From NCBI RefSeq assembly GCF_030373185.1, contig NZ_JAUCZH010000001.1, forward strand, positions 434,001 through 498,000: a DNA stretch of 64,000 nucleotides, in the 5' to 3' direction. The position numbers were made by a program, and so were the translations under genes. The stretch is from Tabrizicola sp. (lineage in GTDB: Bacteria; Pseudomonadota; Alphaproteobacteria; Rhodobacterales; Rhodobacteraceae). Positions 36,629 to 45,965 of the stretch are shown piece by piece (the stretch's first letter is position 1; each line of letters starts with the position of its first letter). The notes below the pieces were generated by a model, which saw only the letters and a program-made list of their open reading frames with translations, made no database searches and had not been told where the DNA came from.

Positions 36629-36705
36629 GCACCCGTAGCTCAGCTGGATAGAGCGCTGCCCTCCGAAGGCAGAGGTCACACGTTCGAATCGTGTCGGGTG
36701 CGCCA
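36629..36705 (+). tRNA. tRNA-Arg (CCG)
   Basis: A 77-base tRNA with a 7-bp acceptor stem (GCACCCG / CGGGTGC), discriminator G and encoded CCA. The anticodon arm CTGCC-CTCCGAA-GGCAG gives anticodon CCG, for arginine. The T arm contains GTTCGAATC. The last 49 bases (36657-36705) are duplicated exactly at 45917-45965, so the gene is the insertion site of the element to its right and was left intact on this side. Confidence 0.96.
36657..36705 (+). repeat. Left attachment repeat (attL)
   Basis: 49 bases identical to 45917-45965. They cover the anticodon arm to the CCA end of the tRNA. The bases on either side of the two copies differ, so the repeat is exactly 49 bp. Confidence 0.93.
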
Positions 36706-36753
36706 AGCATATCAAATGCTTAGATGATTTCCGATGCGTGGGCCAATCTGGCC

Positions 36754-36772
36754 GGTAAGCAATAGGAAAGCA
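36754..36772 (+). repeat. Candidate integrase arm site, left
   Basis: GGTAAGCAATAGGAAAGCA matches 45772-45790 at 18 of 19 positions in the same orientation. Repeats like this near both ends of an element are typical of integrase arm-type binding sites. Confidence 0.5.
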
Positions 36773-36853
36773 TCGACCTCGTTTCCCTCGACTCACTTGG
36801 TCGGTTTCCGGCGGCACTTCTGCCGCTGCCACTAGTGACCTAGAGGGAAAGAC

Positions 36854-37378
36854 ATGACGAGCCCGAACACGATTGCCGAAGCCTTCACCGTCTAGACCGA
36901 GATCGAGGCCAAATTCCCCGTATTCGACGACGAGGCCTTGATCCGCCTTGCCGCGGAAAAAGCGCGGATCGAGGATGCCGCCGTCCTGCTGCCTGTGACT
37001 TCTGCGCTAGACGGGTGGCGGCTTATCGACATGACGACCGAGGACGGGGGCGATGTGACCGCGACCGCTGACGCCCTGTTCCGGCGGGCGCGCGAGGAAG
37101 CCCTCAGCCCGGCGCCCCAAAGCCTCCTTGCGGCGATCTTCGACCAGTGGCTCCCACCGGCCCAGCAATCGGCAGATGGCACGGCCACCGATGCGGGAAT
37201 TCAGCACGACCTCTCCCTTGTAGACGCGGCCGCCAAGCTTCCCACGGTCGAGCGTCTGGACGTGTGGCGCAAGGTGGCGATGGTGATGGACGTGACCGCC
37301 CGGCATACAGGTGCAGAGGCCGCCCTGATGCAGGAAGCCCGCGCTGCCCTTGCGATCAAGGGTCCGACCCACCACTGA
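36854..37378 (+). pseudogene. Element backbone gene with premature amber codon
   Basis: A frame beginning [11 protein letters not shown] at an ATG with a good ribosome site (GAGGGAAAGAC) is broken after 13 codons by TAG at 36893-36895, then runs open for a further 160 codons to 37378. The downstream product is acidic and helical (DGWRLIDMTTEDGGDVTATADALF and similar) and no family is recognised. A TTG or ATG restart (for example 36938) could still make a shortened protein. Single-base change of CAG to TAG is the simplest explanation. Confidence 0.6.
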
Positions 37379-37440
37379 GCGGCCATAGCGCGGCCCTGCC
37401 TGACCGGGTGGGGCCGCTTCGCAATCTTGTGGGTTGAACG

Positions 37441-37727
37441 ATGGACAAGACGAACGAAAAGAAGTGGCTGGTGCCGGAGTATCTGAGCGAGGCAGAGGTT
37501 GCTGTGACCTTGGGCCGGTCCCGTAAGTGGTTGAAGCAGACGCGGGCCGCGCTGGAGCGAAGGCATCCCACGGGTGGACGCCCTGACCGGGCTCACCTGC
37601 CGCTAGGACGTGCTGGCATGGATCAAGCGCCGCCGCCGGGTGGCCGATGTATCCCGAGGCAGAAGCCGCGGCAACGGCAAAGGCCAATAGCCCGGGCGTG
37701 GCGGGCATCAACTGGAGCAAGCTGTAG
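37441..37727 (+). pseudogene. Frameshifted excisionase-like (AlpA-type) gene
   Basis: The first frame encodes WLVPEYLSEAEVAVTLGRSRKWLKQ, a MerR/AlpA-type helix-turn-helix. After about 37560 the coherent reading continues in a second frame (GIPRVDALTGLTCR, then a TAG at 37604, then DVLAWIKRRRRVAD), and after about 37650 in a third frame (YPEAEAAATAKANSPGVAGINW, stop at 37725). The second part fits the wing and C-terminal helix of excisionases. Two frameshifts plus a stop make the gene dead. It is the expected neighbour of an integrase in such elements. Confidence 0.6.
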
Positions 37728-37788
37728 CCGCCGCCGCCTGTTCAAGTCTGGGACGCGATCACTTGCCCGACCCCCGGGGGCCTCGCAT

Positions 37789-37835
37789 GGGGGGTGGGGG
37801 TCGATCTCTGGGGGGGGTGGGGGGTAAAATCGGGG
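37789..37835 (+). other. G-run cluster (possible G-quadruplex)
   Basis: Runs of G6, G5, G8, G6 and G4 lie within 47 bases on the plus strand, separated by one base or by short loops. This meets the simple pattern for intramolecular quadruplex formation. It could also be a source of slippage or sequencing error. No gene is visible across it. Confidence 0.5.
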
Positions 37836-37929
37836 CACATGATCTCACTACTCCACACCCGCCAGCGCCAGTTTTCAAAATTTTTCCTATCTCTCGCGGC
37901 AGGCTTTGTGCACCATCGGGAGCGGCAGC

Positions 37930-43931: not shown

Positions 43932-44205
43932 TCACTGTGCGGGAGGCGCAGACTGAAGCTTGAACGTGACCTCAAGCGTTCCGCAGACCAGCCGCAGTTG
44001 GTCTGCCCCAAGGTCGAAGGTCACCAGTTCGGCGGGGTGAAAGGACTTGGAGGTCTTGGTGATGAAGCCGGCCAACATGCTGGGGTCGACGGCCAGTTCC
44101 TTCGTCACAGATCCGGTCGGCGACCACGAGGCCGTGCCGGTTCAGAAGATAGGCGGATGCCTCGCGGGGATTGAGGTGCAGGGGCGGAGCAATAATGTCG
44201 AGCAT
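43932..44205 (-). pseudogene. Frameshifted small gene near integrase
   Basis: From ATG at 44205 the frame reads MLDIIAPPLHLNPREASAYLLNRHGLVVAD, with a DNA-binding-protein-like start. A coherent second part (TKELAVDPSMLAGFITKTSK, then SFHPAELVTFDLGADQLRLV, then a TGA at 43932) is in another frame. Total length is not a multiple of three, so a single-base indel near 44110 is likely. It lies between the cargo and the integrase. Confidence 0.5.
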
Positions 44206-44413
44206 GATGGTCACCTTGTTGAGGACTGACCGCGCCACACTGCACCCGTGTGCTCCATTTCAATAATGCACTCAGATTTCACCTCATTCCGGCTCGTTTT
44301 CGCCAATGTTTGCCAATCGACGCATCACGTTAGGCCGTCTGGCAGTGACTTTTGGGCAAGTGTCAGATTGGCAGCACTTGCGCCATCTGCCGGGGAAAAG
44401 CCTGCATTAGGCG
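44206..44413. other. Interval between broken gene and integrase
   Basis: About 200 bases with no coherent frame of useful length. No hairpin with T run was seen. It may hold the ends of decayed genes. Confidence 0.4.
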
Positions 44414-45757
44414 TTACCGCCCGGCGTCCGCCCGCAACTGAACGACCTCAGAAAAAGGTTCTTCGTCGCGATAGGCGTCCGCGCAGAGTAGCGAGAAGAT
44501 GCGTCGGGCTGTGTCGTCGGCGACGCCCAGCAGGTGCTTGTCGACCCGGGCAATATAACCTTGCGTGACACTCCCTTGCGCGTGCCCCAAGAGGCCGGCG
44601 ATAGTTACCTCTGTTGCCCCCAGAAGGTTGGCAACGGACGCAAAGGTATGTCGAAGCGCGTGCATCGAGAACTCCATCAGCGCATCTCTCTGAGCCTCTG
44701 AAAGGTCCGGAAGCGAAACTATCCGTTCGATAGCTTTTGGCAGCCCCCCATATGCGCTGTGTTCTTTTCTATCCGCTGGAAAGACAAAGTCTTCTGGTCG
44801 CGGGTTCGCTTGGACAGATCGAAGCCGCTCCAGGAGATTTGCAGCGGCCCGGGCGAGCGGCCGAATAGATGCGCCAGTCTTCGAGGAAGGCAGTCGAATT
44901 GCCCGGCGGTCAAAATCTACTTGGCGCCAAGTGAGCCCTAGCACTTCCTGCCGCCGCAGTCCGGTCAATGCTGCGAGTTCAATAGCAGAAACGGCGTTGG
45001 GGTTCTCTCCCGTTTCGCGGGCAATCCGTAGGGCCACGCCCAGTGCCCGAAGCAAGCCCTCTGGATCCGACAGAGTGCGCTTTCCGTCCGCAGGCAACCG
45101 CACTCCCTTTGTTGGGTTGGCGTCGATCAAGCCACGCTCTATCGCGAAGGCCATGATTGCTGAAAGCAAGGTGACCGCTTTCTTCGCGGTGCCAGCGCCA
45201 CCGGTCACAACGATCCGACCTCGTGCCCTTGTGGATGCCTCCTGCTTGCGCGTGGCTCCTGATTTCACGGCGCGCAAAAGCCGGTCGACATCTTGCCGGG
45301 TGATTTCGCGGACAGGCTTATTCCCAAGACTCGGAAGAATGTGGTGTGTGGCCCGACCGAGATCGACGGCCAACGTTGAAGCCGCTTTCCCTTGGCCGCG
45401 CCGGGTGAGGATTTCTCCCGCGGTGGCGGCCTTGAAATACTCCGTCGTGAGGTCGGCTAAGGTCATCGCCTTCCGGTGCGCTTCCCGCTCATCTGACGGA
45501 CTTAGACGAAGCTCGTTCTTAGCATGCAGGCGTCGCGCTTCCGATCTGGCCTCTGTCGCGGTTATTCGGTGAGCCTGGCCGATTGTCATCCGCTTTGACT
45601 GACCGCCCTTCGACTTGTCCCGAAACTGGATCAGATAGGACTTCGATCCCGCCGGCTTCACTCTCAGCCCAAAGCCGGGAATGGCGTCGTCCCAGTAGAC
45701 GAGGTCGCGCTCTGTCGGCTGAACCGTGTCCACAAACTCCTTGCTGATCTTCGGCAT
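44414..45757 (-). CDS. int: Tyrosine integrase, arm-binding DUF4102 type
   Basis: A 447-residue tyrosine recombinase. The N-terminal DUF4102-type arm-binding region (WDDAIPGFGLRVKPAGSKSYLIQ) is followed by a core-binding region and the catalytic domain. The catalytic residues are Arg268 (TGLRRQE), His366-xx-Arg369 (MHALRHTFAS), His392 (LLGHAQ) and Tyr401 (QGYIARVD). All are present, so it appears functional. It lies 160 bases from the right att repeat, at the end opposite the intact tRNA. It points away from that repeat, toward the island interior. Confidence 0.95.
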   Translation of the reverse strand: MPKISKEFVDTVQPTERDLVYWDDAIPGFGLRVKPAGSKSYLIQFRDKSKGGQSKRMTIGQAHRITATEARSEARRLHAKNELRLSPSDEREAHRKAMTLADLTTEYFKAATAGEILTRRGQGKAASTLAVDLGRATHHILPSLGNKPVREITRQDVDRLLRAVKSGATRKQEASTRARGRIVVTGGAGTAKKAVTLLSAIMAFAIERGLIDANPTKGVRLPADGKRTLSDPEGLLRALGVALRIARETGENPNAVSAIELAALTGLRRQEVLGLTWRQVDFDRRAIRLPSSKTGASIRPLARAAANLLERLRSVQANPRPEDFVFPADRKEHSAYGGLPKAIERIVSLPDLSEAQRDALMEFSMHALRHTFASVANLLGATEVTIAGLLGHAQGSVTQGYIARVDKHLLGVADDTARRIFSLLCADAYRDEEPFSEVVQLRADAGR

Positions 45758-45771
45758 GTCATCTCCCGACG

Positions 45772-45797
45772 GGTAAGCAATGGGAAAGCAGGTAAGC
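45772..45797 (+). repeat. Candidate integrase arm sites, right
   Basis: GGTAAGCAATGGGAAAGCA at 45772-45790 matches the left-end copy with one mismatch. A second GGTAAGC follows immediately at 45791, and a third occurs at 45890-45896, just inside the right att repeat. Confidence 0.5.
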
Positions 45798-45799
45798 GA

Positions 45800-45816
45800 G
45801 TAGATCAGCGATCTAC
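45800..45816. promoter_or_regulatory. Palindrome upstream of integrase
   Basis: A perfect GTAGATC-AGC-GATCTAC palindrome, 43 bases before the integrase start. It could be a repressor operator for the integrase promoter or part of the att-region protein complex. Confidence 0.45.
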
Positions 45817-45916
45817 AGAGTTGACAGGTGCCATAAATGCAGCCATGAAATCAAGTGAAATCGGATGTTTGGGAAGAATAGAGTAAACGGGTAAGCATGG
45901 GATATGCGCTAACATT

Positions 45917-45965
45917 TGCCCTCCGAAGGCAGAGGTCACACGTTCGAATCGTGTCGGGTGCGCCA
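45917..45965 (+). repeat. Right attachment repeat (attR)
   Basis: A 49-base exact copy of the tRNA-Arg 3' end (36657-36705). Without the 5' half it cannot form a working tRNA. The rest of the 45758-46125 interval holds the arm sites, the palindrome above, and no gene. Confidence 0.93.

Follow-up and report, generated by a model that had tools for sequence, protein, structure and literature searches.

The locus described here lies in a 64-kb stretch of a Tabrizicola sp. genome (contig NZ_JAUCZH010000001.1, positions 434,001 to 498,000; hereafter the window) and consists of a tRNA-Arg(CCG) gene, a displaced copy of its 3' half and, between the two, a 9.3-kb interval carrying a TRAP uptake cassette and a tyrosine integrase gene, int (Table 1). 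ARAGORN finds this tRNA gene intact and alone in the window, in agreement with an Rfam search over 36000-48500. Positions 29-77 of the tRNA form a 49-bp direct repeat whose two copies are identical over 49/49 nt and start 9260 bp apart, and the sequences flanking them are not alike. All 30 repeated 20-mers of the window (49-20+1) come from this pair, which is thus its sole repeat of at least 20 bp. In the host genome (3.6 Mb, 17 contigs, 96% complete, 38 RF00005 matches), exact matches to the repeat were found only at these two places (E ≤ 0.001); a search with the full tRNA (E ≤ 0.001) gave four places: the gene itself, its 49-bp copy, and two other tRNA genes (76% and 73% identity). The G+C content is 59.6% in the interval and 62.6% in the window. 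The exact repeat, the differing flanks, the intact tRNA at the left end and the tyrosine integrase 160 bp inside the right copy had been put forward in the initial annotation, which took the interval for an island with these boundaries and this integrase; all of this was borne out.

Table 1. Features of the tRNA-Arg(CCG) locus (positions in the window).
Feature	Position	Strand	Basis
tRNA-Arg(CCG), intact target gene, attL side	36629..36705	+	ARAGORN; Rfam RF00005 67.4 bits
attL core, 49-bp direct repeat, starts at anticodon stem-loop	36657..36705	+	TGCC CTCCGAA GGCA dyad read from sequence
Left arm-like site (GGTAAGCAATAGGAAAGCA), predicted integrase arm site	36754..36772	+	19 bp, 1 mismatch to 45772-45790
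Left-end reading frame, in-frame TAG at 36891 shortly after ATG	36855..37378	+	open reading frame (ORF) 36938-37378; no family matched
Short ORF, looks decayed	37441..37827	+	no family matched (one scan: first 89 codons)
Cargo unit common to another genus (G135)	38104..42863		87.5% nucleotide identity over 4765 bp
Carbon-nitrogen (CN) hydrolase (nitrilase superfamily)	38238..39014	-	PF00795 1.2e-39
TRAP transporter large permease DctM	39028..40329	-	PF06808 2.6e-89; TIGR00786 over cut-off
TRAP small permease DctQ	40333..40869	-	PF04290 5.3e-18
TRAP solute-binding protein DctP	40912..41949	-	PF03480 5.6e-40; NF037995 over cut-off
TetR-type regulator, divergent from TRAP operon	42018..42680	+	PF00440 3.1e-8
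150-aa helix-turn-helix (HTH)-like protein, weakly resembles terminase small subunit	42964..43416	+	phrog_4102 5.1e-6; HTH_23 below cut-off
Weak trace, possibly of the small HTH gene that some relatives have near int	43972..44238	-	HMM E=0.59, 22 aa
Tyrosine integrase (int), 447 aa, arm-DNA-binding and catalytic domains	44414..45757	-	PF00589 1.4e-20, PF13356 4.8e-11
Right arm-like sites, tandem, 15-40 bp before int start codon	45772..45797	+	repeat comparison
Further GGTAAGCA copy near attR	45890..45897	+	motif search
attR core, displaced copy of tRNA 3' half	45917..45965	+	49/49 nt identity with attL core
CitMHS/DASS-type permease (SLC13 in the initial annotation) between attR and znuA	46123-47958		Pfam CitMHS and Na_sulph_symp

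The integrase has the N-terminal arm-binding domain PF13356 (Arm-DNA-bind_3) and the C-terminal catalytic domain PF00589, both over cut-off. Its residues R268, K293, H366, R369, H392 and Y401 are in place, and each of these columns is conserved across at least 30 of the 32 sequences aligned; the enzyme is predicted to be catalytically complete. It shares the domains and the tyrosine-recombinase residues of other Arm-DNA-bind_3 ('P4-like') integrases.

Among 31 genus relatives, a full-length match to the tRNA was found in 29 (G011 has none and that of G014 is cut by a contig end), and the surroundings of these 29 were compared. A recurrent gene order was observed, consisting of sufS, a subtilase-type gene (not in all), tRNA-Arg, znuA and znuC; the neighbours in the window belong to the aminotransferase-V, Peptidase_S8, ZnuA and ABC-ATPase families of Pfam, the first of which we read as SufS. 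The znuA match starts less than 3 kb from the intact tRNA in 19 of the 29 relatives and lies farther away in three (7.2 kb in G022, 7.6 kb in G007, ~36 kb in G020); for the other seven the distance is unresolved, with no znuA within ~14 kb (G002, G013, G024) or on short contigs (G006, G008, G009, G012). Apart from a TetR-type match of 27% identity in G026, 13.5 kb downstream, no island protein was matched in the 29 stretches (E ≤ 1e-8). Relatives thus lack the island at this locus, as judged from the znuA match close to the tRNA in 19 of the 29. A match to the integrase at E ≤ 1e-40 was found in 13 other genomes, none of the genus, and a profile of its subfamily run on the ORFs of the genus loci examined matched only the integrase of the window. 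Neither of the two outcomes that the initial annotation had named as fatal to an island, a segment fixed in all relatives or the lack of any empty site, was seen. It had also expected an empty site in which tRNA-Arg(CCG) is followed directly by the SLC13 permease gene, an arrangement present in 0 of 29 relatives, where the conserved right neighbour is znuA. The SLC13-type gene has no match at the locus in these relatives (E ≤ 1e-8; some on short contigs), and consequently the expected empty site is not the ancestral one. Eleven other genomes of the genus have a homologue (E ≤ 1e-60), the best being 58% identical, and in every case it lies outside the tRNA stretches compared. The permease gene is accessory as well and the second such gene at this tRNA hotspot.

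In G020 the same tRNA has a different, 35-kb occupant (L065-L067, G020:C4:151549-186889), with a partial repeat of the tRNA (48 nt at 90%) lying 35 kb downstream, and a Pfam scan of four of its ORFs recovered no integrase. The partial copy indicates that the tRNA-Arg site has been used repeatedly.

Relatives of the integrase were collected from two overlapping sets, one of 293 genomes searched at E ≤ 1e-40 and one of 385 searched at E ≤ 1e-55, which gave 31 loci beyond that of the window; their integrases are 31-41% identical to it over the best alignment. The nearest named matches, on plasmids of Shinella, Bradyrhizobium, Sinorhizobium and Agrobacterium, suggest that the genomes with these loci are Alphaproteobacteria. 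An integrase scan of genome contigs returned two distant loci only and one of viral contigs no match, and against phages (104 records) the best identity among the matches listed was 26-27%. When a library of 59 tRNAs from the loci examined was searched against the DNA upstream of int, a tRNA 3' fragment was found in 30 of the 32 loci, that of the window included, and it was antisense to int in all 30 and sense in none, with edges at -142 to -262. The best-matching tRNAs were Arg(CCG) in 17 loci, Gly(GCC) in four, Ala(GGC) in four, Val(GAC) in three, and Glu and Thr in one each; since the three Val and one of the Ala assignments (81-87% identity) are tentative, five tRNA species and a tentative sixth are represented. 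An antisense fragment places int beside attR, at the tRNA-distal end. Accordingly, when 27 regions were read further, the intact tRNA lay at the end away from int in all 13 islands having both ends in one stretch; 14 regions were unresolved, of which G363 agrees once the both-ends and fragment data are combined. The stretches were taken mainly towards the end away from int, which biases the 13/13 count taken alone and leaves the 30/32 fragment orientation unaffected. The same layout is found in a plasmid record of Bradyrhizobium septentrionale (NZ_CP088289.1; int 330776-331999 (+), attachment (att) copy 330549-330593 (-)). The far-end position of int is therefore a property of the integrase subfamily and not a peculiarity of the copy in the window.

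Control integrases were obtained by seeking PF13356 in 61 genomes, which yielded 30 loci (one per genome by score, leaning to one clade) that were given the same treatment. Twelve had a sense fragment (one at -428), four an antisense fragment (one of only 19 nt) and 14 no match. Thus, unlike the subfamily, in which the fragment is antisense, controls with a tRNA match have it in sense in 12 of 16. In an unrooted tree of 54 integrases, comprising 31 of the 32 subfamily rows (the short L083 was left out) and 23 of the 30 controls (seven short ones, including two sense and one antisense, were left out), a 100/100 branch separates the subfamily from the 23 controls. Polarity requires a single change among 43 labelled rows, which falls among the controls, against 7 to 10 changes in 200 shuffles; the target tRNA requires nine changes among 30 rows.

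Both ends of the island also carry arm-like repeats. The motif GGTAAGCAAT(A/G)GGAAAGCA starts 49 bp past the attL core and 15 bp ahead of the int start, and the score of the left site was reached by 0/60 shuffles and 0/100 random island windows. GGTAAGCA occurs three times on the forward strand of the 64 kb, each time at an island end, and never on the reverse strand; GGTAAGC occurs four times on the forward strand, always at the ends, and twice on the reverse strand, elsewhere. At comparable places, the other islands of the subfamily have direct repeats that differ in sequence. In a shuffle test of these end repeats, 10 of 13 islands had a score reached 0/60 times, and by ungapped local score 12 of 13 exceed every one of 100 windows drawn at random from the same island. 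Comparisons between islands (n=156) gave a mean of 8.1 and a 95th percentile of 11, with seven scores above it (12-19), most of which come, in our reading, from islands with the same motif type.

Taken together, the exact duplication, the catalytic residues of the integrase, the absence from relatives and the matching repeats at both ends make it very probable that the 9.3-kb stretch is a genomic island integrated site-specifically in the 3' half of tRNA-Arg(CCG). The island integrase would have recombined the chromosomal tRNA gene with an attP site that carried the 3' half of this gene, with strand exchange most likely in the anticodon loop, the stem of which supplies the dyad that a core site should have. 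The tRNA at attL would have been restored by the attP copy, and the chromosome's own 3' half would have been moved to the far, int side as attR. At the tRNA-distal end, int would be kept away from read-through of the tRNA, and it may regulate itself through the arm-like sites that lie 15-40 bp ahead of its start codon. Within the subfamily the target tRNA has changed several times and the antisense polarity has not.

The island cargo is a mobile TRAP uptake cassette. In a search of 293 genomes, the one under study included, DctP was matched in five other genomes (E ≤ 1e-90) and the CN hydrolase in two (E ≤ 1e-50), none of the genus. Proteins of G135, from the same family and another genus, are 97% (DctP), 96% (DctM), 92% (DctQ), 91% (TetR) and 86% (CN hydrolase) identical to those of the island, a modest excess over the conserved SufS (86%). 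G282, from another family, has a DctP 88% identical and a SufS 53% identical, which indicates a clear transfer. The G135 cassette (L100:3733-13240) sits between a tRNA-Ser(TGA) gene and 14 nt that repeat the 3' end of this tRNA exactly (E=0.015), and next to it are a pair of transposase-like genes and a short ORF resembling a recombinase (the names are our reading), which weakly suggests another tRNA island as its vehicle. Diverged versions (74-76%) are present on three Leisingera plasmids. Among solved structures, DctP best matches an isethionate-binding DctP (2.4e-18), which is too distant to assign a substrate. The genome also holds a second, partial copy of the cargo (L101:9293-10536; G000:C2 ~308.3-309.5 kb), in which the C-terminal 159 aa of DctM are 96% identical and a CN hydrolase is 65% identical. 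Elsewhere in the island, the small ORFs beside the left-end reading frame look decayed.

Other islands of the subfamily, for which selected ORFs were read, carry diverse genes. Restriction systems were found in G229 (type I restriction-modification with AbiU2), G180 (type III), G363 (MmeI-like type IIG) and G457 (type I); G342 carries an AAA ATPase and a methylase, and G219 SIR2, HerA and Schlafen-type proteins. In the 9.2-kb island of G229, ARAGORN reads the int-side att copy (L118:10622-10701) as an 80-nt tRNA-Arg(CCG)-like gene, and the normal tRNA is also present at the far end. A small HTH gene near int was found by similarity in at least 5 of 14 islands, a lower bound because ORF picking lost genes and missed the integrase itself in G192 and G443. 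Two of the five reach Pfam HTH_17 (0.0007 and 0.0013, below cut-off) and three match nothing; we read this gene as a putative excisionase. No intact excisionase-like gene was recognised in the island of the window, and excision is therefore probably poor now.

The alternative that fares best, which we nonetheless regard as unlikely, is a prophage or phage satellite in decay, with its structural genes lost, int retained and cargo inserted. The G443 island (L163), of the same subfamily, geometry and tRNA-Arg(CCG), carries terminase large subunit, capsid/protease and portal genes, the tRNA-Arg(CCG) island of G460 (L155/L156) encodes proteins similar to these, and both look like capsid-forming satellites; in the window, the 150-aa protein weakly resembles terminase small subunits (5.1e-6) and the left-end reading frames are broken. 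However, apart from that match, no structural, packaging, replication or satellite-replication family was found among the island ORFs scanned, and the restriction or defence genes of the other islands make phage genes look like cargo rather than the core of the family. An integrative mobilizable element spreading by conjugation is very doubtful: the relative G396 carries a MobA/VirD2-type relaxase, but no relaxase or transfer family was found among the scanned ORFs of the island itself. That an old segmental duplication of the tRNA end left the integrase as a bystander has a negligible probability, given the similar spacing from int start to att in 30 of 32 related loci and the matching end repeats in 12 of 13 islands, even though an excised circle was not observed.

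Several results nevertheless weigh against site-specific integration with an inherited att polarity. Neither an excised circle nor a pair of strains that differ by the island alone was seen among the genomes compared (one per species), and the right flank (45966-46165) matches no downstream DNA of the relatives (E ≤ 0.1), so the lineage's own empty site was not identified. No tRNA fragment was found at two of the 32 int loci (L080, L083). Three antisense controls in the tree branch between the sense group and the subfamily, and antisense polarity is consequently not exclusive to the subfamily; it may be the older state, although the tree is unrooted. The shuffle test of the end repeats is weak for G342 (2/60) and fails for G219 and G457, and G219 also fails the random-window test. 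An additional att copy is present in G219; the island there may be a tandem array, and this could account for its failure. The arm sites themselves are predicted, as is their binding by the integrase, and a scan of 45700-46000, from int to attR, for a consensus promoter found nothing. For the cassette, the CN hydrolase of G135 is no more alike than SufS, which makes transfer of that gene less clear.

Notwithstanding these points, the island is a further instance of the known tRNA-integrated genomic islands. It resembles the tRNA-targeting islands of Islander (PMC4383910) in having an intact tRNA, a displaced 3' fragment in the same orientation on its 3' side and a tyrosine integrase between the two; in the excerpt of that source used here, it lacks no defining feature and the position of int within the island is no criterion. 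An int beside the intact tRNA is the commonest control polarity, which we did not treat as defining; here int is antisense and distal. As with IntS of the Escherichia coli element KplE1 (PMC2951348), int is transcribed from next to an att site, and autoregulation would be expected here by analogy; unlike KplE1, whose int adjoins attL at the tRNA, int here adjoins attR. A survey cited in that paper has the vast majority of island integrases adjoining a tRNA. The initial annotation had called a far-end integrase less common, which holds against this survey and our controls and does not hold within the subfamily, where the far end is the rule. The paper's own survey, as described there, took 1273 of 8368 integrase genes, those adjoining a tRNA gene, so that islands with a far-end int would mostly fall outside it. 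We found no statement of a polarity rule in the literature surveyed, and as this survey was partial we do not claim that the rule is unpublished.

With some reservation, we favour the view that integrase clades inherit, as a fixed trait, the polarity in which the tRNA-matching att core lies relative to int. The antisense state found throughout the present subfamily would force int to the tRNA-distal end, uncoupled from tRNA transcription, and would persist while the target tRNA (Arg, Gly, Ala, Glu, Thr and probably Val) and the arm-like sequences change; the subfamily would serve as an all-purpose carrier of restriction and SIR2-HerA defence systems, capsid-encoding satellites and, in the window, a nutrient-uptake cassette. 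This gives a testable rule, namely that att polarity is inherited with the integrase and the tRNA target is not. Surveys that seek integrases beside an intact tRNA will miss most elements with the far-end layout. In 12 of 13 islands both ends allow the core and the arm-like repeats to be delimited, which makes the subfamily a natural series for studying how integrases change target, and the island itself shows a TRAP uptake cassette moving between genera.

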